Assembly: GCA_009602725.1 (NCBI GenBank)
Contig: WELB01000100.1
Span: forward strand, 134,370-183,749
Direction: 5' to 3'
From: Spirogloea muscicola
Taxonomy: Eukaryota; Streptophyta; Zygnematophyceae; Spirogloeales; Spirogloeaceae
Length of the DNA stretch: 49,380 nt
A program made the translations under genes and the position numbers. The notes under the pieces were generated by a model that worked only from the letters and a program-made list of their open reading frames with translations, was not told where the DNA came from and ran no database searches. Shown piece by piece: positions 393 to 32,156 of the stretch. The stretch's first letter is position 1. Each line of letters opens with the position of its first letter.

Positions 393-3276
393 ATGCTACG
401 GGCCACTTGTCATGAGCATGATGGCAGTGGCCATCGGCAGCAGTGCGACCGCTTCATACCCAACCGGCGGTCACTGGACCTGGACATCGCACAATTCAGC
501 ATCCTGCGCGAGTGCACCAAGGACAACATCGGCGGCAGCAATGACCCGGCATTGGCTTCGCCGCCGCACCTTGCCGTCACGTCGCCCGTCAAGGTCAGCG
601 GGAATGGCTGCTGGCTCTGCGGCTGCTGGGTTCTGCAGTGCTTGTGAGCCAGGCCGCCGTGGCCAAAGTGCTGATGCCTGGTGGCAGTGTTGTTGGACCG
701 CAGGAGGAGTACAAGCGGAAGCTGGCGGCAAATCTGCTGCGGAATTCCGGTGGCGGAGGCGTTGGTATTCAGAGCAGGGGCAGCAGCCCCATCCTCTCCT
801 TTAAGAGCCCCGCACGGCAGCCAACATCGGCGTCAGTGGCGGCGTTAGCAAACCTGGACCTGCAGGCCGGGGCTGGCGATGGCACCATCGCCTCGCGTCG
901 GCCCTTCCGCCACGTCCCTGAGGTACCAAGCCGCTTCTGATGGCGGAGCTGTGCTCAGCCTTGTTTAGATAGTCAGATTCTGCATAAGGTTGAGGATCTG
1001 CCAGTGCCGCAGGCCATAGCCTGGTTTGTTGCAGGGCCAATCTCTGTGCTTTGTGTGAAGTGAAAGTCGTCTTTGTGAATGCATTTCCTTGACACCACCA
1101 TGATTCCAGATATTCATTGCCTCTGTACAGGCTTATGAGACCTCTGAATCACTCTTATGTGTCCATTTGACAACATCAGCATCGTGATCATGTGGGGCAG
1201 GGGTCGGAGCGCATCCTTGACGCGCCAGAGCTTGTGGACGACTACTACCTCAACCTCCTGGACTGGAGCTCGTCCAATGTCGTGGCTGTCGCCCTGGGCA
1301 CTGCTGTGTACCTGTGGGAAGCCTCGGGCGGCACCATCCAGCAGCTGATGCAGGCAGACGAGGGAGGTGGCGGCAACGACTACGTGACGTCTGTCGCGTG
1401 GGCTGCGGATGGCCGCCACCTTGCCGTTGGGCTCGACTCCGCTGATGTCCAGCTATGGGATGCCTCCCGCCTGCGCCAGGTTCAACCTCCTGCATGCATC
1501 TCCCTCCTTCAGATCTCTCCCTGCCTCGCTCCATCGCTATCTCTGGCAGCCTCGTGCTCCCTCTTGATGCCAGCCATGCCTGCCCTCATCCAACCTGCTC
1601 CGCCTGATGCCTCTGGACTGGGGCGCGTCCTGTTGCAGGTGCGCACCCTGCGGGGTCATGGGGCCCGCGTTGCAAGCCTCGCCTGGAGTTCGTCGCTGCT
1701 CACCACCGGCGGCCGCGATACGCTCATCCTCAATCACGATGGTATAGAAAGTCTTTGCGACTGCCCTTCAATGCTGCCTATACTTCAATCTGGCTGAGTC
1801 GATCCAAAATTTCCACTATACATCTAGCAGCCGCTTTCCATTGCTGCTTCTGTACTCTTGGTGCCACTTGGCTCCATTGCTGTGTGTGCTTGCTTAACTC
1901 CCTGACACTACTGCATGGCGTGGCCTGTAGTAAGGGTGCGGGAGCACGTCGTCTCCCGCCTAGCTGGCCATGACCAGGAGGTCTGCGGCCTGCGGTGGGC
2001 TCCTTCGGGCCGCCAGCTCGCTAGTGGCGGCAATGACAACCGCCTGCACATCTGGGATGTATCAGCCGCGTCGTCATCACAGCCGCCGTCTGGCGGGCGG
2101 CTAGGCGGCGCCCCTATACGGCCGCGCTACCTGCACCGCCTTGAGCAGCACACCGCAGCCGTCAAAGCCCTCGCCTGGTGCCCATTCCAGGTGCAAATTA
2201 CGCCGCTGCTCGGGCATGCCCGCCACCGGCGTTGGCTGAAATTGATGCCGCCTGATGATGACAGCAGCTTGCTCCGTGCACAACAAGAGGCAGCGTTTGT
2301 GAAGACTGCAGGCCATATCTTGTGCTTCCAGCTCTTGTGTTCGCACTCCCAAAACCATTGCCGGTGTCGTTACCGCTGCCGCGGCATGTCGCTGTGCACA
2401 GAGCAATTTGCTGGCATCTGGCGGCGGCACAGCAGATCGCTGCATCCGATTTTGGAATACCACCAATGGCACGTGCCTCAACTCCCTCGATACGCACTCT
2501 CAGGTTCGCTGAAGTCATCCACAGAGCTTGATATCCCCGGCCATTTGATAGCTGACAGCTGAGAAATGTGACTCACATGCAGCAGTGGTGGCGGGTGGCA
2601 TTTGATGATGGCGTGCAGGTATGCGCCCTACAGTGGTCGACGCACGAGCGGGAGATCCTGTCATCGCACGGGTTCAGTCAGAACCAGCTCTGTCTCTGGC
2701 GTTATCCGACTCTCGCCAAGCTTGCGGAGCTGCGGGGCCATTCGGCGCGCGTCCTCCACCTGGCGCAGGTGTACTGCCTGTGCATGTTGGACTCCCCCCC
2801 ACTCCCTACTTTCTCTGGCCTACCACTGTCTTCCTCGCCTGCTCTCCGCCCCAGTCTGCCCTGCACGCCAGCCCTCTCCTTTGCGCCCTGCCTTCCCTCC
2901 TCCCTCTCCTTGTCTCTCTCGAATTGCACACCCACTACCACCCCCCACTACCCCCAATCCTGCTCTCCTTCCTCCCCATGGTGTACACGTTGCTATGTAT
3001 CTCTCTCTTGCCAGTTCCCCGCTTCCTTCTCTGTGTAGCCAGTAGGGCCACTCTCTATGGCGCTATACTCATTGCTGCTGCTGTGGTAATGTGCGCCGAG
3101 CTTCATCGCAGAGCCCGGATGGACACACAGTGGTCTCGGCGGCTGCAGACGAGACACTGCGCTTCTGGCAGGTCTTTGGCCAGCCCGGGGTCAGCAGCCG
3201 GCGGCTCCTCCGCTTTGGCCGTAGCAACGGCAGCACTGCATCACCCCTTGCAGCGCGCTCTTTCAACATACGCTAA
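393..3276 (+). CDS. CDC20: CDC20, WD40 activator of the anaphase-promoting complex
   Basis: CDC20 recruits mitotic substrates (cyclins, securin) to the APC/C ubiquitin ligase. Exons, phased by GT-AG junctions and homology: 393-593, 704-922, 1201-1479, 1639-1741, 1931-2190, 2402-2503, 2619-2768, 3112-3276, giving about 492 residues, normal for the family. Visible marks are the C-box DRFIPNR at residues 19-25, a KILR-like segment (ILSFKSPAR), the plant-CDC20 block [17 protein letters not shown] that opens the propeller, WD-type signatures such as [14 protein letters not shown] and [22 protein letters not shown] late in the propeller, and the C-terminal Ile-Arg (FNIR) that docks on APC/C subunits. 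SSHGFSQNQ and [10 protein letters not shown] resemble plant CDC20 more than the CDH1/FZR paralogue. The ATG at 393 is the first in frame, but only 18 residues precede the C-box, so an upstream exon may exist. The fourth junction splits Asp-Val (gat g|ta). Identity is very secure; the N terminus is less so. Confidence 0.95.
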
Positions 3277-10322: not shown

Positions 10323-12609
10323 GCAAGCAGCCCCAGCTCGCCTCGCTACCGCGGCCCCATCATTGGGCCCCCCGTTAATTCCTGTGGGGAGGACTGGGAT
10401 CCTCCTTTCTTATGTTCACAGCCACCCCCGCGCCCATGCGGGCTGCTGTTTTTTCTCCGGCGCCTGGCTGCCTAGAGCCGGGTGTCAGGACCTTTGTAGA
10501 ACCACTGCCCCTTCTGGCGTGGCCCTAGCTGCCACCCGCCAGCCCGGTTGCAGGGCCTAGTGTGACCACTTGCTCTGTGGGTGAATGCCCCACCAGCATG
10601 ACCTTCTGCACCTGACGGCCACCCCCCTAGTCCCCCTTAGGCCCATGTTGTTGTTCTCTTCCGCCATTTTTAGAGCTGCAACAGCGCAGCTGCTGACAGC
10701 CGCCTGCTGCTTGCTGCTATACATCATTTGTCCAGGCCCCGTGAACAAATAAATGAGTCTCGGGGGTAGGTTTCCTTGCATTCTGCTGTAGACTCTTTAC
10801 AATCTTCATACGGCATTGCAGCCGTCACGACCACCTACGGCTCGTTCACTGTCTGACAAGCATCAATGCAGCTTCCTGCTAGCTTGGTGATGAGTCAGTG
10901 ACCAGATCACCGGTTGCTGTGACAATTACAATCCATCATCTGCACAATGTACCTTGCACGTGTGCCGCCACTTCTGTGATTGTCTTGTCTTTGACTGGTT
11001 GTCTGTCTTTGACTGGTATTTCAGCAGACTGGTATGGTCGTGTGGCACTCCCAAGTCCATTGTGCATATTAACCTCGTGGGTCTTGACCTGAGTAACTCT
11101 TGAGTAACTTAGCTGGCAAGGTCCTTCCCATGCAAAGATCTCACCTTGGCAAGGCTCAGCAAGCAGTTGCAATTTGCTGCTTGATTGTCGTGCTTGCTTC
11201 TACTCGATGGCCTGCGGGCAGCTTTTTGACTATTTTGATATGGAGATGGCAAAACCTATCGCTCAATGTTGGAGATGCTTGCAAAGGAGGCAGTGCCCAT
11301 TGAAACAGACTTGCGCGACAATCTTTTGGCAACTCTTGCTTGGCAATCAGCTCAGCAATTTAGCACAGCCAGCAGGTGTGGTTTGAGTGAGGCAATGGCG
11401 CGCAGAATGAAAGCCGTGTCGTGCATTACCATGTCGAGGCTTGAGCATGTTGATCTGACTCAGAAGCCGATCTGACTGACGCGAGAATGGTACTGGTAGG
11501 CTTACTCATACTGATCTTCTAATCGCGTCGAGCGCGGGGGCCCCCTTCCTGATAAGGTCAAGATGAAGTGCTGAACAAAATCGTGTAGGAATGGCAGCAC
11601 AGCGACGACGAACGGTCCCGCGTGCGCTTATTCGTTCAGCCAATGAAGACCTTCCAAGGTGCAACAACGAGGGAGCCCACGAAGAGGGCACCTCAGCCAT
11701 CACGAACTGTGTAGGTGGGCGCTGCAGAAGCGGTGGCAAGGAAATGGCAGAGCGACGCTGAAGCCAACAATCCATGGTCCAAGAAAAGCACTGGGCTTGA
11801 TGAAGGATCAAATAAGGGGCAACCGGCCATAACACAGCCTACTGAAAGATGCTCGTCGAAGAAGTCACCTCGACGAGACCAGCAGTGCAAGGGAAGGGAC
11901 CCTCACTCCAAGCAGTCTGCTTGGCAAGCCTCAGCCTCTAGCTGAGAGCCGCACCTGCGAAAGCGCCGCACTTTGGTCGCCGAATTTTGGCATTGCTAGT
12001 GAGCCTTCACTGGACCTGCATGCGATGCGCAAATGGACACTTGCGGTGCGCAGCCTCAGCCTCAAGTGTTGTGCTCTCCTTGTGAGCTGCTACATTGTGA
12101 GTGCCAGTCTTCAGACCCGGTCAGCAAATCTTATGGGTCAGGGCTGAAAATGGGTCGTGATCAGTTTGACAAGCGCCGATGTCGCACACATTATCCTACT
12201 GTGGTCGGGTGCATTGCACACATTGCTTGTGTTGACGCCTTTCCATCTTTGTTGCATTGGGTCGCCAAGGGCTAGGTTGTCGAACTTAGCCTGTTACAGC
12301 TTAGCCTAAGAGGTAGTTCTCTTGGAAAGTCTCTTTGGCTCAGGTCACATATCGAGCTCGGAGGATCTGTTTGGCTCAGGTCACGCACTAAGTCTGTCTC
12401 AAAAGGATCTCTTTGGCTCTGATTGCGGAGTATGATCTCCTCTTTGGACCATCTCTTCGGCTTGGGTCCATCCACCAGCCTCTGTTCTGCTTGTCAGCAC
12501 CTGCTTCAGCGAATTAGGCAGTCTACTTCTAATTCTCTGCTGACTGCTTTCTGCTTGGTTTCGTTCTTCTCGTACTTGTAGATACCACGTCACTTTTGCA
12601 TGCAAGGTA
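10323..12609. other. Intergenic, no gene recognised
   Basis: Short open frames only and no motif recognised. At 12330-12430 a short phrase, CTSTTTGGCTCWGRT, recurs three times about 36-43 bases apart, each followed by CAC or TTG. Otherwise I see nothing. Confidence 0.45.
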
Positions 12610-16334: not shown

Positions 16335-16715
16335 TTGCTTGTACTCTGCTCATTCTTCTATGGGCTGGCTGTTCCAGCCCCTATCCTCAATGGGCGAGCT
16401 CTTCTACTTGCTGACGCCTTTGGGGTCTGCTCTACAATGGCCCGTGCGCTGCACCTGCGTGCCGGCCGAGCCCTCGCTGCTGCCTCTGGCTCTGGCCAGG
16501 GGACGTCCTTCCAGGAACATAGCCTCTCAGACCTGCGACTGCTTAGCAGGGGTTACTGAGTAGTTAGTAGCTGCTTTGTTTCTTCTTGTGTGCTTCTTTC
16601 TTAGTGCTTCGCCTTAGTGCTTCGCCTGGCCCCCCTTCTTCTTGGGCTTCTTGTACTCTGCTCATTCTTTTTTGGGCTGGCTGTTCCAGCCCCTATCCTC
16701 AATGGGCGAGCTCTT
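16335..16715 (+). mobile_element. Short 5'-truncated retrotransposon end between two near-identical tails
   Basis: 16440-16560 encodes the last ~40 residues of the element ORF (ARALHLRAGRALAAASG, then SDLRLLSRGY and stop). It is flanked by two nearly identical tails of about 66 bases at 16338-16404 and 16648-16714 (TTGTACTCTGCTCATTCTT, hairpin GGGCTGGCTGTTCCAGCCCC, TATCCTCAATGGGCGAGCTC). The first tail belongs to an older copy; the second is this copy's own. The nearly full-length element begins directly after it. Confidence 0.8.
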
Positions 16716-16895
16716 TCTTCTTTAGTCCTTTGGGCTGGCACTGGGGGCTGGCCTGGCAAGCTGGAGCGAGCGCCGCCGCAGCTGCAGCAAGCGCGCGGCA
16801 TGGCGGCCACCGCCAACCTAGCCGGCCCCCGCGGCAGCGCGGCGCCGCCCTCCCCTCGGCCCCTCGAGTCAAGCCGCAGCCGTCGCGCGTCCCTT

Positions 16896-17093
16896 NNNNN
16901 NNNNNNNNNNNNNNNNNNNNNNNNNNNNNNNNNNNNNNNNNNNNNNNNNNNNNNNNNNNNNNNNNNNNNNNNNNNNNNNNNNNNNNNNNNNNNNNNNNNN
17001 NNNNNNNNNNNNNNNNNNNNNNNNNNNNNNNNNNNNNNNNNNNNNNNNNNNNNNNNNNNNNNNNNNNNNNNNNNNNNNNNNNNNNNNNNNNNN
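16896..17093. other. Assembly gap (198 N)
   Basis: A run of 198 N inside the N-terminal part of the retrotransposon ORF. The true length is unknown, so the apparent frame continuity across it is not evidence. Confidence 0.99.
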
Positions 17094-20000
17094 CCTCACT
17101 CGCCCGAACCACTGCTGTGCAAGCACTGCTTGAGGACCTTCACCTCGCGGTCCGGCCGGGCCAACCACGAGCGAGCCTGCACGAGCAGTAACAACCGTGC
17201 AGCACAGGCGCGGAGCGAAGCGGCAGCGGGTGGTCGTCGGGGCAGACCAGGCAAGCCTCCCGCATCGTCCCCGCCCACACCTCAACACTGGCAGTGGCTG
17301 GCTGGCCTCGACCTGGCCGCAGTCCACCGCCAGGCGGCCCTGACGCTCCTCCGCCACGTTCCGCGTTGGGTGCGCCCGCACCTCCGCCGCGCGCTCCGCC
17401 CGGTGACGCAGCGTCTCGTCGCGGACCACCGGGACGAGGCGGCGTGGAAGCTCTTCCTCCTCTTCCCCCGGCTGCTGCTCGGGCGTGCCTCTCCCGATAG
17501 CCGCATGCAGGGCCAGCAGCCCCTGCTGGAGCGCGTCCAGTTGTTCGAGAGCGGGCACTGGGAGGAGCTTCTGGCGCGTCATGACGCCGTGGCAGCCTCT
17601 GCGGCCAATCGTGGGGGCACAGGGGCAGAGCCTGACAGGGCCGCCAACGTCCGGCGGGCACTCCGCTTCGGCCACGCGGGTGAGCTTTCCAGGGCTGTGC
17701 AGGCCCTCGACGATGCGATGCTGGCGCCGACCAATGCGGCGACTCGGGCGGCCCTGGACTCCCTGCACCCCCCAGCGAGCTCCCCTCTGCCACCGTGGTT
17801 GGCCGCCTTCGCACCGCCGGAGGAGGTGGTCCTCGAAGCCCACGCCCTGCGGAGGGCCCTGCAGAGCAGCCGCCGCGCGGCCGCGGGAGGTCCTTCCCAC
17901 ATGCTCACCGAGCATCTCCGGGAGATCTTCCTGGAGGGCGACCCGGCCGACTTCCAGGCGCTCCACCAGGTGTGCCAGCTTCTCGCTCGCGACCAGGTCC
18001 CGGCCAGCGTTCGCGGCGTCCTGTGCACCAGTACATTGCTGGCGCTCAGCAAGGCCGGCGGGGGGGTCAAGCCCATCGCCATCGGTGAGGTGCTCTACCG
18101 CCTGGTGGGGCGCGCGCTTTGGCAACAGCACGCAGGGCAGGCCCAGGCACACCTGGCGCCCCAACAGTTTGGTGCGGGGCTGCGGAGCGGCGGTGAGACA
18201 ATCGTGCGCGGCGTACGGGCCGCCCTGGACCTGCATCCCGAGTGGGTGGCCATGGCGGTTGACGTCCGCAATGCCTTCAACAGCGTTGACCGTGGTGTCT
18301 TCGCGGAGGAGCTGAGAGAGGCCTTCCCCAGCCTTCTACCCTTCTTCAGGCTGGGGTACGGTCAGCCCTGCGAGCTGCAGTGGCGGGCGGGGGGTGATGG
18401 GCTGGTGACCCTCCACTCCACCAGGGGCGCGCGCCAAGGGGATCCACTGGCGGGGTTCTACTATGCGTTGGCACACCACTGTGCGCTCCAGGCAACGGTC
18501 GCGGTTCACCCCGGCGTCCTCGTGCCGACTTACGCTGATGACACCACGCTGGTGGGGAAGCCAGAGGATGTCACAGCTGCCTTCGACACCCTCCAAGTAC
18601 AGCTGAACGCGATCGGCCTTTATATCCGGGCGGACAAGTGCAGCGCCTGGTCCCCTCAGGGCCTGCCAGCCCACCTGCGCCTGCCCGAGGGTTGCCAGAC
18701 ACCAGCCGGGGGCCTCACCCTCCTCCGCGTCCCCCTAGGTGCACCTGCCTTCGTGACGGAGCAGCTGCAGGCGCGGCTGCAGGAAGACCTCCGGCCAGCG
18801 GACCGTCTCCACACGCTGCACGACATGCAGCTTGCGTCTGCGATGCTGACTCAGTGCATTGCGCAGCGGCCACAATATCTGGCCCGCACCATCCCCCCCT
18901 CGTCGGCGGTGAAGGCAGCGTATGCGGCCTTTGACTCCGGCATCCTGGCGTCCGCGGCCACCCTGGTACAGCACCCCGCGTTCCTCACCACACCAGCAGC
19001 GCTGTTGCAGGCCAGCCTGCCGATCAGCCGTGGCGGCTTGGGATGCCGCTCAGTTGCCCGCGGCTGCGAGGCGGCCTACATGGGTAGCTGGGCTCAGGTG
19101 GCAGCCCCAATGAGCCAGAGGTTCCTCGTGGACGGCCAGCGCGTCCTGGAGCGGGTGGCAGCTGAGGTGGAGATCGGTCAGCTGCCTTTTCAGGTTGCCC
19201 TCCGCTCTGCCCGCGACGGGCTCCTGGCAGTCCACCCCCGCATGTCGGAACAGGCTGTTCCTTTCATCCACCTCGCCCACACCCCAGACCAGCGTGCCCA
19301 GGCACGCTTCTCGGCGTTGGTTGATCAAGCGGCCTCCGACCAGGTGGTGGAGCTTCTCCCCCCAGCTGACCTGCGAGGGCGCGCCCGGCTGCTCTCAGCC
19401 TCCTCCCCTGGGGCGGCGGCGTGGCTATCGGCGCTTCCACTCCACGCGGCGCTCACAATGCCTGACGAGGTCTTCCGGACGCCGGTCCACCGGCTCTTGG
19501 GCCTCCTTCCCCCCTGCCTCGTGGGCGTCCCTCAATGCGAGTGCGGTGCCCGACACGATGATCCTGCGGAGCTGGCCGCCCACATGCTCCGTTGCGCCCA
19601 CGGGGGGGAGCGGACCGCTTCCCATGACCTCCTGCGCGACGGTATGCAGGGGGTGTTTTCGGAGGCGGGATTCAAGGTTGCGGTAGAGAACTCCTCAATC
19701 ATGCCCATTCAGCTGGGCGCGGACGGCCAGCCCCATACGCGACGCGCTGACCTGGTCGCCATCCCTCCCGGCGGCGGTCCCTGCATCATCGCTGATGTGG
19801 TGACAACAGACTGCATCGACTCCGCCAACCCCACCAGATCGGCGTCGTTTGCAGGGCACGCGGGCGGCCCGCGGCAAGGAGCGAAAATACGCTGATCACC
19901 CGGTGGGGGATGAATTCGCGGCCCTGGCGATGGATGTACACGGGGCTTTCTGCAGCCGCTGGCGGATCTCATTCAGCGGCTTGCTCGCCAGGCCATTGAC

Positions 20001-24579: not shown

Positions 24580-25933
24580 ATGCAAAGCCAGGAGGCCATG
24601 GCAGGAGCCACCAGCCACGACGGTGCTAGTGCTCAAGCTGACGGTCGCGAGAGCAGCGTGGACGAAGGCGGAGGTGGCGGCCGCGACGACGGCAGCGGTG
24701 GCAATGGCGCCAGCGGGGGTGGTGGGGAGTCAAAGGACGGGCTCGGTGGTGACGCCGAGGCAGGGCCCCCGTGGCGCGGCTGGCGACTCTGGGCGGGCTC
24801 CGTCCTCATGCAGAATCTCGTCCTCCTCGCGCACGTCGGCCTCGCAATGCTGTCGCCGCAAAGGCGGGACCGCATGCGCTCGCGATACGACAATCTCTGG
24901 GTGCGTGCGGTCTTGAGCACTAAAACATATTGGTGTTGCTCGGCTATCTCTGAACCTTGGGGCGGCCAGCGCAAGTCAGCTTCGAGTGGCTCAGTCATGC
25001 AGGGGACTGCTTACTAAAGACATGTTATATATCTGAACCCCGTAGTCTAATTCCTGAACCCTCTCGCAGGAGGGAGAGGAGAGGGAGGACAGACAGAGGA
25101 GGAAACGCAGGGGGCGGCAGCAGCAGCAGCGCCGACGACGACGTGCCGCTGCTGACGAGGCAGACCAGGAGGAGCAGTGGCGGGCACGCCGGAGGTACTG
25201 GCGGGCTTACCGGGAGATGCTGCGGCAGCGCGAGAGGGCGCAGAGGGCACACGAGTGGCAGCAGGCAGAGCACGCTGCTGCAGATGGGGCCACAGGCAGC
25301 GAGGGGCAGCGAGGTATACATCATCAACCTCTACATACCTTGTGGCTTTCCATGTCAGGCTCAAGGGGCTCAGTGCCAGTAGTAGGACTTGGACATTGGC
25401 CTCTTACATTATCAAATGCAGCTCCCACCTCGAGCCTCAGTGCCACTTGGAGGCAGTGTGCCTGGGCCTAAACCCCACACTGGCCGCCTGACTCCACTTT
25501 GGTGCGCCTTGACTCCGACATAGTAACAGCAACATCTTGAGGCTTGCACTTGCTCAAGGGTCTGATTGTGGCTCCGCATGCACGTGGGTGCTGACCAGGC
25601 AATGCTTTCCCCGTGACAGGAAAGCCGGAGGGGCCAGAAGTCACATATCGACAATACGTGGCAAGGTGGGCGCGAATTATGAACTGCGACAATGAGCAGC
25701 TGACATTCTTGGACATCCCATGGCCGCCCCTCTGCAATCCATTGTTCCTCGAGTCTGGCGACTCAACGGACGTCAAGCGGGTCAAGCTGCGGCGCGCGCT
25801 GCTGATGTGGCACCCCGACAAATTTGCGGCGCGGTTTGCGGGCCGTCTCGACCAAGGCGAGCGTGAGCGCATTAGTTGCGAGGTAATGCGGGTGGCACAG
25901 GAGGTAATTCGCCTCAAGGAGAGGCTGGCGTAA
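24580..25933 (+). CDS. NFKBIL1-like protein with J-domain-type HPD motif
   Basis: Three exons: 24580-24900, 25070-25313, 25620-25933, giving about 292 residues; junction phases agree (phase 0, then cga g|ga). Exon 1 encodes an acidic Gly/Ser/Asp-rich region and ends RMRSRYDNLW. Exon 2 encodes a strongly charged, probably helical stretch (RARRRYWRAYREMLRQRERA). Exon 3 has VTYRQYVARWARIMN, LTFLDIPWPPL and RRALLMWHPDKF, the hallmark of plant NF-kappa-B-inhibitor-like 1 proteins, which share WPPL and a degenerate J-type WHPDKF block. The ankyrin repeats of the animal protein are absent, as in plants. In animals the protein is linked to spliceosome or RNA roles; the plant and algal function is not established. 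An ATG at 24298 in the same frame is an alternative start. Confidence 0.82.
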
Positions 25934-26808: not shown

Positions 26809-29800
26809 CGGTCTGCAATCGACTGTGCCGTGGGCAGTCTGGGCGCAGCCGCCGCCGGCGCCGTCGCCATTGGCGCTGGTGCTGGCCAGCCGCCCCATGT
26901 GCAGCTCGCGGCCTGCGAAAGCCGCGGCGAGCCTCCTGCGCAGCTGCCTGCGCCGGTGGTGGGCGCCGGCGGCGCCGCCCGAGAACGCGCCGCTGCTCGG
27001 CCAGCGGGCTGCCAGCCGTATCGACGCCGCTGGCGGCCTGACGACTGGCGCTGGCGCCAAGGCGCGCTCGAGGAGGTCCGCAGCGTGGCCGCCATCCGGC
27101 AGCCATGGCGGCTCTGTCGCCAACCTCGCGTCTATGTCTTGGCGGTGGCCGTGCCTGACGTCCTGCACAGCATCGCCGCGCTCAGGGAGGACGGACAGCG
27201 GACTTCTGCTGCCGCCGCCGCCACTGCCGCCGTCGACTGGTCGTTCGCCCTCCGCCTGCTGCGGCTCGCACGGCTGGCACGAGCTCGCGTGAGCACTGCA
27301 GCCATCACGCTTAAGTTTGGGCTGTAATGGGCTGGACTTGGGCATCAGAGTCGAGGCCTGCAGTCTGAGGCCTAGTCTGGACCTCTTTGACATTGGCGTG
27401 TTTGCATGTGCGCACTGGCAATGACTTCACCGTGGCTCCGGCGCTTAGCTACCGCTGACCATCTGCAAGTCGTCTGAAGTAGAGGCATAGTGACGTCGCG
27501 CTCTCAGCTCAGTAGCAGGAAGCCTTCACCTTCATCTCCTAGTCCTAGCCCCGCAGCCTAGGCCCTTAATAATACGCCGGAGTGCCAACGGCTGTTACAG
27601 GGTGCTCTGCTCCTGGTGGCGCTGGCCCTTGCCCACGTGCTCGTGACTGCGCAGGTCGGCCAGCTGGCTGGCCTCTTCTACAAGGCGCTGGTGGATGGGA
27701 ATGCTTCGGTAGCTGCCCTGATCCCAGGACCCAAATGCCAAGCACCTCAGATTGACATTCCATAGCTAGCCTCATAACCGCCATTGTCAAAAGCCAGATT
27801 GGTTACGGGAAGCCCCAATTTGCATTTGTTCCTCAAGTTCAGGAGCACTAGCAATGGTATCACTTATTGGATGATGGCTCAAAACACAACACAATACCAC
27901 CCGAAACCTGTGCAGAAGCTGACAGTCGAGGAACTAAATTTGGCCTTGTGGATTACGTTGCAACACCTAAGCTTCAGCATCGGCCGTGAAGCCACTTCCA
28001 GGCCCTTTTCTTTATATTAGAAGTAATATGAAAGTCTACATGTTGCTCAAGCTGCTGACATACCTGTGCAAAGTCTGTGCAGCTCTTCTGGCGGGCAGTC
28101 AAGTGCAACGTGCTGTGGTACGGCCTGGCAACGCTTGGGAGCGCGGCGCAACAATGGGCGGCCGAGTGGCTGAGTCTGGGGTGGCGCCGCAACCTTACGC
28201 AAGCTGCGCATGAGTCCTACTGCCGCAATGCCAATGTTTACCGCGTTGGCCTGCACTTCCAGGAGCTGGACAATCCGGATCAGCGCATCGCGCAGGTAGT
28301 GACTGACATCAAGCAGCTGCAAGTTGCCACAAGTCGCCACTTCACAACCCTCAGCTTCTGGTGGACCCATCTTCTGATTATTGCCTAGACCTCTGCAGCA
28401 TTTACTTTGACATCCCAATCAAGATTTGTGGCTCTGTTGCTAAAGCGCACACACACAAGCTTTGCAGGAGATCAGCAGCTTCTGCAGAGGGCTGGCTGAT
28501 TTTCTGGCAAAGACGGTGGCTGCCCCATTCATGGTCCTATATTACGGATGGTGGACCTGGTCCCGCATGGGGTGGTATGCACCTGCCGCCGGAGCCCTCT
28601 TCTTTCTCATGGCTGCAGCCTTGACAAGACGAATCATCTCGCCCATCGCCGCACTGGTGGCCAAGCAGGACCGGTTGGAAGCTGACTTCCGCATGTCCCA
28701 CTTCAGGTAGCACCATGGGCAGCGGTAATGACTAGATGACAGACTTGCCAGCTAGCTAAGAGAACTGCAACTTCTTCCGGGCTACTTGTTGTCAACGTTG
28801 CTGGTAATTCCTATGTAAATCAGGGGCTTCATAGGTGCAGTTGTCCCTGTGGACTGCCATTATTGACTGCCGAGATCCTTCACAGGCTGAAGAAGTACGC
28901 CGAAGAGGTGGCTCTCCATGGTAGTGGCCCCACGGAGGCGCACTACCTGGACGCGGACCTTACGAAGGTCCTGACTAACCAGAGGCTCCTTGCAGACCGC
29001 CACTTCCTGCTCAAGCTCGCCACCGGTGCCTGTGACTACTGTGGTTCGTAACCTGGCTTATCATGCTCTCCTAGTTCACAAAGTGTTAAGAATCTTTTTC
29101 AGAGACCTCCTTGACAAATGGCCGCACGTGTATTCCTCACTAAGTGTGCAGCATCGTGTTAGAACAAAGAATGAAGATGAAGGCGACAAGTGATCTTATG
29201 CTTGTGCTCTACTTCTAGCTGAACAACTAGCCGGCTTTGTGCTGCTACCAGGGTCTCTTTCAAGTTACTTGGTGCTGGCGCTGATGATCTTCGGAGGACA
29301 AGTTGATAGGACCATGGACAAGGGCGCCATGGCTCAGCTAATCAGCAACTCTGCTTTTGCAATACTACAGCTTATTTACAGGTAAGAAAGTAGCTCCAAG
29401 GCTGTGCTGTATTTGTCTACAACTCGTCTTTGTGATAACAAAATTACATCAAAATTCGCTGGCCGGTCAGCTTCCTCATGATGTTGTCAACATCCTTACC
29501 AGAGTCGCCTCGTGCTTATGAAACAGGACAGCTTACTTGCCTTTATAACTTGCGTATACATGGTTCACTTCAAGCACTGAGCGAGAGCTTTCTTTCCAGC
29601 TTCTCTCAGGTCATTGACGCTTCCAAGGTTCTCTCAGAGGTGGCCGGCGCAGCCTCAAGAGTGGCAGAGCTACTGGAAGTGTTTGACACCATGTCAAGTG
29701 ACTTGAAGGAGCCGTCAAGTGCTGATCAAACACTGGATATAGCCAGCTTCCCAGCTAAATCGGATGGCAGCATTGGCAGCTACGCGCTGGCTATGATGGA

Positions 29801-32156
29801 GAACTCAGAGCTCGCCTCCAATGGGCTTCTCATTGGCCCTGTGTCTGTGACCCTCCCTAGTGGCGACGATCTCGAGTTCTCCATCCACCGGGCCCCAGTG
29901 GAGCTCCTGAGCTTGCTGGCTGCAGTTTTTCCCGGGGTCTCGCCAAATGACATGCTCATCGTTCCAACGTTTCAATGCAGTGCGCTCGACCTTTGTGCTG
30001 GTAACGCTGACGACCAAGACGAAGTTGCGGAGGAGATGGACCGGATGCTGGCCGCATTTCTCAGCTTCCAGATCTCAGTCTGTGAGTTTCTCAGAGGAAG
30101 GGGCCATTGGGCGGACGCAGTCGACCCCAAGTCCGGGCATGCGCTTGCGCCCAGTCCAGAGCGCCCAGTCCGGAGCCCCCAGTCCTCAATCGAGGATGGA
30201 CAGGCAGCAGTCCTAGAAAGCCGGCTGCCGTACAGTGAAGCATACGCAGCGAGTGTCCTGCTGGCTTATGCGACAGTGGAGGCTGGCGCGTGCATCGTGA
30301 CACGCCACCCAGTGTTGGGCACCCGCTGCTACCCGGCGTCGCTCTTCACTACGGCCCCACTGCAGGACCTGCTTCTTGCCATTGACCAAGTTGCTCCACA
30401 CAGCATTCGCACTGAACGAGCTCGAGTGACAGGCAGTTATAGTATTGGTGGTGGAGGATGTCATGAGGAGCGGATTGGAAGTCACAGCATATTGTATATG
30501 TGCGACAGCGGATCTGCATCTGCCGATTTGGCCCATGAAGACTGTCGTCCAGATACAGAGCCAATTTCAAGAGAAGCAAGATGCAATGTGGAAGCCTCAA
30601 GTCAACCTATCCTTCTGGGGATTCATCACTTGACCTTGTGTGCACCCAGATCCGAGCTGCTTCTCATCAAAGACTTGTCGGTCACTGTGGCTGCTGGGAG
30701 ATCCTTGCTCGTGATAGGAGACAGCGGGGCCGGCAAGTCCAGCCTCGTTCGCGCCATTGGTCGCCTGTGGCCGCTTGCGGCAGGTCCTATTCCTTGCTTG
30801 CTCACCTGTTGCCCCTGATGCACCACTGCAAATCAAAAGCCACCAGAGTGACTCAAAAGCATACCAAGAGCCACAAGCTGTCCTTGTGCAACTATGGTGA
30901 CTGCATGACAATGTTGAGCTCTTCGCATTCCATACTGTGCAGCGCAGGGCCAAGTCGAGTTGCAATACAATGTGTTCTTGCTAATTCGTCGGAAGAGCTT
31001 ATATTGCTGTTATGTTGTAGTTGAGATCAGATTGAGCTTCTTCTTGACAGGCGCGGTAAAGAGCACCCCTGGCCTCCGGACCTTGTACGTCACGCAGAGG
31101 CCCCTGCTTTGCCGGGGTGGCCTTGCTGCTCAGATCCTGTACCCAAGGGAGCCTGACTCAATGTCGTCCAATGAGGGTACTGCTTTGTGGCTGGAGCCTT
31201 TTCTCGAGATGGTGGGCCTCCAGGACCTACTCCGCCTCACCGGCGGCGACTGGAAGGTAAGACTCAGATAGGTGGCAGCAGATTATGTGATTCTTTCAAG
31301 CATTTGCGTGGCCACAGAATATCTTCATGAGCATGGTTACAGGACGCATGCCTCACACATATGCACGTACATATTGTAGTATGCGCACAGATGTGCCAGG
31401 ATCTCAAATTTATCGGCCAATTGCGTGAATGCACGATAAGTCCTTCCTACGGTGTTTGAGGTGTCTTGCTCATTTTGGGCAGAGGTTCATCGTGAATCTG
31501 CTGTGGACTGATGTTATGCTTTGCCCAGGTTCCTCTTGACTGGAGCCGGGAGCTGTCACCAGGCGAGCAGCAGAGCCTGGTGCTTGCTCGGGTCCTGTGC
31601 CATCGCCCGCAGCTTGCCATACTGGACGAGGCAACGACCGCCATAAGCAAGCAGGCAGAGGTTGGCTGCTAGCTAATTCGATGCTTCCTGTTGAGAGACA
31701 ATTGGCATGATGTCCGGCGTCTTCTGGTTCCTCTGCTTCATCTAATCCTCCTACTATTGCTTCTTCTACTTTGAAAGCCACAACCAGGAGCTGATAAGAG
31801 TCCTGCTTGTGGTAAGGCAAGCGATAGCAACATATAGGTCCTCATTCATACTACCGGCAATGCCTGTATGAGCGGCAATTGCCACTGCGAGACTCTGTTG
31901 GCAGTTGTTTCCTCAACGAGCTGTAACCATGTGGGCTCTATTTGCTCATTTGCACAACAATGTGGACTTTCTTTGCTCACAGGCACAATTTTATGGGCAC
32001 CTGGTGGCAAGTGGTACATGTTTTGTGAGCTTGTCTCATGGCAGCTCGCTGGAAAAGTGGCACCACAGTGTGCTCACGCTGTTGGGCGACGGGCGGGGTG
32101 GCTGGCGCCTTCGGCCGTCGACCAACGCCCCTTCAGACAGCTCCCGGGCCACTTGA
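26809..32156 (+). CDS. ABCD4-type cobalamin transporter fused to an MMADHC (cblD)-like domain
   Basis: Exons: ~26809-27288 (start not found), 27562-27708, 28083-28295, 28468-28706, 28886-29025, 29231-29381, 29600-30783, 31051-31256, 31529-31660, 31983-32156. All internal phases agree, giving about 1020 residues against ~600 for animal ABCD4. The membrane half resembles ABCD4: LDNPDQRIAQ|EISSFCR, RLEADFRMSHFR, then SFSQVIDASKVLSEVAGAAS. One exon then encodes an MMADHC-like domain (29817-30400; GHWADAVDPKSG, CIVTRHPVLGTR) and runs into the ATPase half: Walker A GDSGAGKS (30717-30740), VTQRPLLCRGG where ABCD4 has its LPQKPFF segment, signature LSPGEQQ (about 31553), Walker B LAILDEAT, and a switch His in FVSLSHGSSLEKWHHS as in ABCD4. 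Animal ABCD4 moves cobalamin out of lysosomes. The first coding exon has no ATG in its frame, so the true start lies in an unseen exon or a neighbouring frame. Land plants lack this pathway; B12-using algae do not. Confidence 0.9.
29817..30400 (+). other. MMADHC (cblD)-like domain inside the ABC-transporter gene
   Basis: This is a domain within the larger CDS, about residues 530-725 of the fusion. The order matches animal MMADHC: an N-terminal strand region (NGLLIGPVSVTLPSGDDLEF), LLAAVFPGVSPNDMLIVPTF, an acidic stretch before EMDRMLAAFLSFQISVCEFL, the most diagnostic piece GRGHWADAVDPKSGHALAP (family: AEGYWADFIDPSSG.AF), and AGACIVTRHPVLGT followed by SLFTTAP (family: CKVIRHSLWGTH followed by SIFTNA). 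A Ser/Pro-rich insert of about 25 residues lies where the animal protein has a short loop. A Cys is kept in the VIRH segment, in or next to where human MMADHC carries the Cys reported to contact cobalt. MMADHC itself has no enzymatic activity; it is a B12 trafficking partner of MMACHC. Confidence 0.85.

Follow-up and report, generated by a model that had tools for sequence, protein, structure and literature searches.

Gene organization at the locus

The window analysed here is a 49,380-nucleotide stretch of Spirogloea muscicola DNA (bases 134370-183749 of contig C100), taken from a genome assembly of 153 Mb and 471 contigs. A light-harvesting exon of this genome matches 102 PDB sequences at E<=1e-30, and the 60 listed are chlorophyll a/b-binding and other light-harvesting proteins, a group known mostly from plants and green algae, as expected of a green alga. 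Its forward strand carries a gene that, as confirmed at the level of the predicted protein, encodes an ABCD4-type half-transporter with an MMADHC (CblD) domain between the membrane half and the ATPase. ABCD4 and MMADHC are separate proteins in animals. This domain order had been put forward in a preliminary description of the locus and is borne out by Pfam matches, by PDB matches and by three copies of the gene.

The ten-exon model (27229-32156, Table 1) was set by hand, with ABCD4 serving as a guide. The spliced frame of 2604 nt, closed by a stop codon at 32154-32156, yields an 867-aa protein with three Pfam matches: ABC_membrane_2 (PF06472, E=8e-53, residues 22-273, profile positions 17-269 of 269), MMADHC (PF10229, E=2.2e-12, 47.7 bits against a cut-off of 27, best stretch at residues 392-485 and profile positions 122-211 of 272) and ABC_tran (PF00005, E=3.5e-14, residues 660-802). 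The same families are recovered from the separate open frames, with E values of 1.3e-13, 6.8e-14 and 3.6e-4 for PF06472 (the last one below its cut-off), 4.1e-13 for MMADHC (50.1 bits, cut-off 27) and 3.1e-5 and 4.6e-7 for PF00005; the frames of exons 6, 8 and 10, taken singly, matched no Pfam family. A profile search of the MMADHC segment had been proposed as a check in the preliminary description, and the exon-frame match is clear. The scores of exon frames and spliced protein rule out a chance domain match.

Exon 7 (29600-30783), whose boundaries agree with those proposed earlier, holds GHWADAVDPKSG, CIVTRHPVLGT and the Walker A motif GDSGAGKSS in one open frame. Since the MMADHC domain and Walker A share this exon, joining them needs no splicing assumption. 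The other motifs named in the preliminary description are also in place: LDNPDQRIAQ closes exon 3 (28083-28295) and SLEKWHHS lies in the last exon. At the 5' end only the 3' part of exon 1 is modelled and its boundary at 27229 is a working choice; its sequence AVDWSFALRLLRLARLARAR resembles the N-terminal segment of ABCD4. Coding sequence further upstream, including the previously suggested gene start at 26809, was rejected as unsupported because the indels that separate the three copies upstream of about 27229 have lengths not divisible by three (14 nt in copy L009, for instance) and because the window frame has no Met in this region.

Table 1. Modelled exons and the MMADHC domain of the fusion gene (window coordinates)
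Feature	Position	Strand	Evidence
Exon 1, 3' part: AVDWSFALRLLRLARLARAR, donor GTGAGC	27229..27288	+	Three-copy comparison, exon model
Exon 2: first membrane segment, ABC_membrane_2	27601..27708	+	E 0.1 alone (not significant); spliced-protein match
Exon 3: ABC_membrane_2, ends in LDNPDQRIAQ	28083..28295	+	E 1.3e-13
Exon 4: ABC_membrane_2	28468..28706	+	E 6.8e-14
Exon 5: ABC_membrane_2	28886..29043	+	E 3.6e-4 alone (below cut-off); spliced-protein match
Exon 6: last membrane segments	29252..29381	+	No Pfam match alone; within spliced-protein ABCD4 match
Exon 7, 1184 nt uninterrupted: last part of the membrane domain, then MMADHC flanked by linkers 1 and 2, then first part of the ATPase including Walker A GDSGAGKSS	29600..30783	+	
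MMADHC (CblD) core domain, G-Ala-Cys at the human G-Cys261-Cys262 position	29829..30392	+	Pfam, PDB alignment, copies
Exon 8: ATPase, Q-loop region YVTQRP	31051..31256	+	No Pfam match alone; spliced-protein match
Exon 9: ATPase signature LSPGE, Walker B LAILDEAT	31529..31660	+	E 4.6e-7
Exon 10: H-loop VSLSHG, SLEKWHHS, stop TGA	31983..32156	+	No Pfam match alone; exon model, ABCD4 match

Kinship of the transporter part

In a PDB sequence search, ABCD4 chains scored 299.5-300.9 bits, compared with up to 190.3 for ABCD3 and up to 177.3 for the ABCD1 half-transporter. Among the 60 matches listed, which do not include ABCD2, ABCD4 thus appears to be the closest half-transporter. The top match, at 363.5 bits, is to a full-size protein of 1337 residues ('ABC transporter D family member 1'), which ranks first because its two halves (about 198 and 172 bits) are summed. 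The best ABCD4 stretch covers query residues 22-335, and the start of the ATPase is also matched by ABCD4 in the exon search. The top NCBIfam match, a peroxisomal fatty acyl transporter model, lies far below its cut-off (269 bits against 919).

The fusion shares its half-transporter order and nucleotide-binding motifs with ABCD4 (CblJ), the lysosomal cobalamin exporter. Walker A, the Q-loop region, the LSPGE signature, Walker B with its glutamate and the H-loop are all present; Walker A, LSPGE, the Walker B glutamate and the H-loop are found in 3/3 copies. It differs from human ABCD4 in about 270 extra residues, including the CblD domain, between membrane half and ATPase, whereas in human ABCD4 (chain 24ve) the matched stretches are only 33 residues apart (355 to 389). 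ABCD4 has been described as lacking the N-terminal H0 peroxisome-targeting region (PMC5059523) and as exporting cobalamin towards the cytosol (PMC11311337). In Chlamydomonas, putative homologues of ABCD4 and LMBD1 have been identified by BLAST (PMC10828217).

The MMADHC domain and its cysteines

The core of the inserted domain matches solved MMADHC chains (5a4r, E 5.9e-10; 5cuz, 5.5e-9). With MMADHC (CblD), a cytosolic/mitochondrial B12 chaperone, it has the Pfam family, the D-P-x-S-G motif and Cys262 in common; it differs in its location within a membrane transporter, in an insert before the cysteine hairpin, in a Gly at the Trp189 position and in an Ala at the position of the cobalt-ligating Cys261. 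The resulting G-Ala-Cys is found in 3/3 fused copies. This loss, a point absent from the preliminary description, affects a residue of known function: human Cys261 binds cobalt and is displaced by the adjacent Cys262, which loads methionine synthase (PMC12272874), and both cysteines have been named as responsible for binding and loading (PMC13376404). By itself, the core of human MMADHC takes up aquocobalamin through Cys261 and releases it onto methionine synthase by means of Cys262 (PMC12272874), so that CblD can act on B12 without MMACHC.

A separate MMADHC is encoded on contigs C26, C18 and C11 of the same genome. Unlike the fused domain, this free protein carries both cysteines (G-Cys-Cys in 3/3 copies). 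The two are 34% identical over 160 aligned columns and share a YPAxLxTxAP stretch as well as D-P-x-S-G, Y-S-E and G-x-C-x-V-x-x-H. The cysteine hairpin aligns well between them, G-C-C-K-V-V-L-H of the separate protein standing opposite G-A-C-I-V-T-R-H of the fusion, and the Ala261/Cys262 register is backed because the separate MMADHC has Cys at that column. Residue numbering is fixed by PDB chain 9mrs, which has Ser at 262 and which we read as an engineered C262S form. A further Cys, 12 residues past the Cys262 equivalent, is also conserved in the fused copies; together with the retention of Cys262 this suggests that thiol chemistry may still be in use.

MMADHC contacts MMACHC through its stretch 182-189 (PMC4705923). 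This stretch is not retained in the window copy, in which Thr182 is replaced by Ser and Trp189 by Gly. The inserted loop PSPERPVRSPQSS, which follows DPKSG and precedes the hairpin with the cysteine, contains a short 14-bp tandem repeat (2.8 copies) at window positions 30147-30185.

Three diverged copies and selection

The same locus, flanks included, is found on contigs C3 and C315 (L009 and L010), with 86-88% DNA identity over the gene. Under one exon model, all three copies have a 2604-nt frame with no internal stop, and GT-AG borders 27/27 modelled introns. Indel events are confined to the introns (49, 27 and 37 in the three pairwise comparisons, against 0 in the exons of each). The rate ratio of nonsynonymous to synonymous substitution (dN/dS), from three pairwise comparisons with region limits set by hand, is 0.08-0.10 in the membrane domain, 0.20-0.26 in MMADHC and 0.21-0.23 in the ATPase; it reaches 0.32-0.48 in linker 1 and 0.99-1.62 in linker 2, the linkers flanking the CblD domain being about 45 and 69 residues long. 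Of the variable sites in MMADHC, 13, 12 and 38 lie at the first, second and third codon positions (188 sites each), an excess at the third (p=3.5e-6). Taken together, dN/dS and codon positions give the pattern of a domain that is predicted to fold and to be loosely tethered on both sides. Purifying selection acts on MMADHC, and the fusion is therefore maintained. An assembly or pseudogene artefact, also considered, is ruled out by the intact frame of the three copies and by the selection pattern.

For several of the genes searched, the genome has two or three diverged copies (on contigs C100, C3 and C315; C26, C18 and C11; C12, C30 and C95). Over the fusion frame, synonymous divergence (dS) between copies is 0.16-0.18. 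Diverged copies of this kind are as might be seen in an allopolyploid or long-diverged hybrid genome.

The B12 pathway in the same genome

A genome search with 204 residues of the membrane domain (exons 3-5) returned 11 matches. Nine of them fall at the three fusion loci; the other two, on C109 and C313, reach only E about 1e-3 and are taken to be other ABCD members. No separate ABCD4-like gene was found with this query; assembly gaps could hide one. MMADHC matches occur at the three fusion loci and on C26, C11 and C18, six loci in all, and the human MMADHC query finds 6/6 of them (E 2.9e-6 to 1.9e-4). Since those on C26, C11 and C18, with exons joined by eye, read as separate MMADHC with a GCC pair, the tethered CblD of the fusion comes in addition to the free one, not in its place.

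MMACHC was not detected in the genome with its Pfam model, which was also silent in control genomes, or with the human protein as query; these searches had no positive control of their own, the human MMADHC query that recovered all six loci being of the same kind. MMACHC is probably, though not certainly, absent. Mucorales fungi have been reported to keep CblD without CblC (PMC8085122).

The B12 clients MetH and methylmalonyl-CoA mutase are present at two and three loci, and the B12-independent MetE at two, a combination that suggests a facultative B12 user. LMBR1-family matches at three loci are at most candidates for LMBD1; one exon, compared with the PDB, had no match. The RuBisCO large subunit had no match in the assembly, so that plastid contigs probably lie outside it.

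In viral contigs 7 stretches fitted a pattern and one locus (L022) passed, with 22 residues at 64%, which was judged to be chance. A pattern scan of genome contigs gave 307 matches and 0 confirmed relatives, and tblastn with the MMADHC core found no match in plasmids.

Possible function of the fusion

In ABC half-transporters the segment between membrane domain and ATPase is cytosolic, which, with the export direction of ABCD4, would place the CblD arm on the exit side. Human ABCD4 is a homodimer. We consider it somewhat probable that the polypeptide is an ABCD4-type exporter whose CblD arm captures cobalamin, or docks a carrier, at the cytosolic exit. The half-transporter, probably a homodimer, would export cobalamin from a lysosome- or vacuole-type compartment to the cytosol. 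The CblD domain, carried on loose tethers within the cytosolic linker that joins the membrane half to the ATPase, would provide two arms per dimer, each of which could take up cobalamin or dock its carrier as the vitamin leaves the pore; cobalamin would then be passed to free two-cysteine MMADHC. The form favoured here is an acceptor or docking arm, tethered and with a single cysteine, that may pass B12 to free CblD. What the sequence itself shows is the order of the domains, ATPase motifs that are intact, retention of the fusion in three diverged copies, constraint on the insert and the Ala261/Cys262 pair. Also in favour of this reading are the separate two-cysteine MMADHC and the B12 clients MetH and methylmalonyl-CoA mutase in the same genome.

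Direct hand-over of cobalamin at the membrane exit, as proposed in the preliminary description, stands as a plausible hypothesis that needs three changes: the tethered domain has lost Cys261, which also sharpens the idea; a separate two-cysteine MMADHC is present as well; and MMACHC, the usual partner, was not detected. Much more tentatively, the single-cysteine arm might take cobalamin as a cobalt-thiolate directly at the membrane exit. Thiol exchange would then move the vitamin on to free CblD with its two cysteines, in a relay that would need no MMACHC and would at no point leave cobalamin free in the cytosol.

Several points weigh against the favoured explanation. With the cobalt ligand Cys261 gone, it is less than certain that the fused domain binds cobalamin. 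The Cys261/262 hairpin, although aligned gap-free to PDB MMADHC chains, scores weakly (3.6-9.7 bits; 9-10 bits against wild-type mouse and human MMADHC), and a single-sequence structure prediction had a pLDDT of 38.6, too low for fold or domain contacts. We infer the lysosomal location and the cobalamin substrate only from kinship with ABCD4. The presence of MetE means that the B12 route need not be essential.

The first of these points leads to the most serious alternative, which we consider possible if doubtful: the fused CblD would no longer bind cobalamin and would act as a docking platform for free MMADHC or methionine synthase, or couple their state to the ATPase. Ala replaces Cys261 in 3/3 fused copies though the domain stays constrained, and human apo-MMADHC has been reported to interact with apo-methionine synthase (PMC12272874). 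However, Cys262 is kept in 3/3 copies with the second conserved Cys 12 residues on, which would fit persisting thiol chemistry. Loss of the cobalt ligand, together with the Gly at the MMACHC-interface position Trp189 of the window copy and the failure to detect MMACHC in the genome, could also indicate that the MMADHC-like insert now serves a function that has nothing to do with cobalamin, such as structural or regulatory control of the ATPase. This is unlikely: the host transporter is of ABCD4 type, a chance pairing of two B12-pathway domains is improbable, and the fused domain retains D-P-x-S-G, Y-S-E and G-x-C-x-V-x-x-H in common with separate MMADHC. As the model comes from genomic sequence alone, with exon boundaries chosen by hand after ABCD4, the parts might also belong to neighbouring or alternatively spliced products that never form one protein. 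This we regard as very improbable, given that MMADHC and Walker A share one stop-free 1184-nt exon, that arrangement and splice sites are identical in three copies, and that selection of the coding type is seen in the membrane part, in MMADHC and in the ATPase alike.

A natural ABCD4-CblD fusion provides Rosetta-stone evidence for both proteins working at one site, and a single-chain system for studying the transfer step. A tethered CblD with Ala-Cys and a free one with Cys-Cys would divide the cysteine roles between them, a chemical prediction that is both sharp and testable. In agreement with the preliminary description, no ABCD4-MMADHC (CblJ-CblD) fusion was found described in the open-access literature; subscription papers, preprints and protein databases lay outside this scope and the architecture may be catalogued somewhere. 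In the main text of one paper 'fusion' occurs twice, both times for haptophyte methionine synthase. Like the gene described here, the fused haptophyte MetE (Rao et al. 2024, as cited in PMC11439496) is a gene fusion in algal B12-related metabolism, but its proteins are unrelated to those of the present fusion and it concerns methionine synthesis, not B12 trafficking.

Other features of the window

Upstream of the gene, an open reading frame (ORF) at 25595-25930 (+) contains RRALLMWHPDKFAARF and has similar ORFs in L009 and L010. It had no Pfam match at E<=1e-3; it resembles the C-terminal part of a J-domain-like/NFKBIL1-type protein. A retroelement is marked by a 1096-aa open frame at 16605-19892 (+) that encodes reverse transcriptase (RVT_1, E 1.2e-10). 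A WD40 exon lies at 1906-2559 (+), its top model being CDC20/Fizzy at a score under that model's cut-off, and a tRNA-Ser (AGA) is located at 11881-11969 (-).

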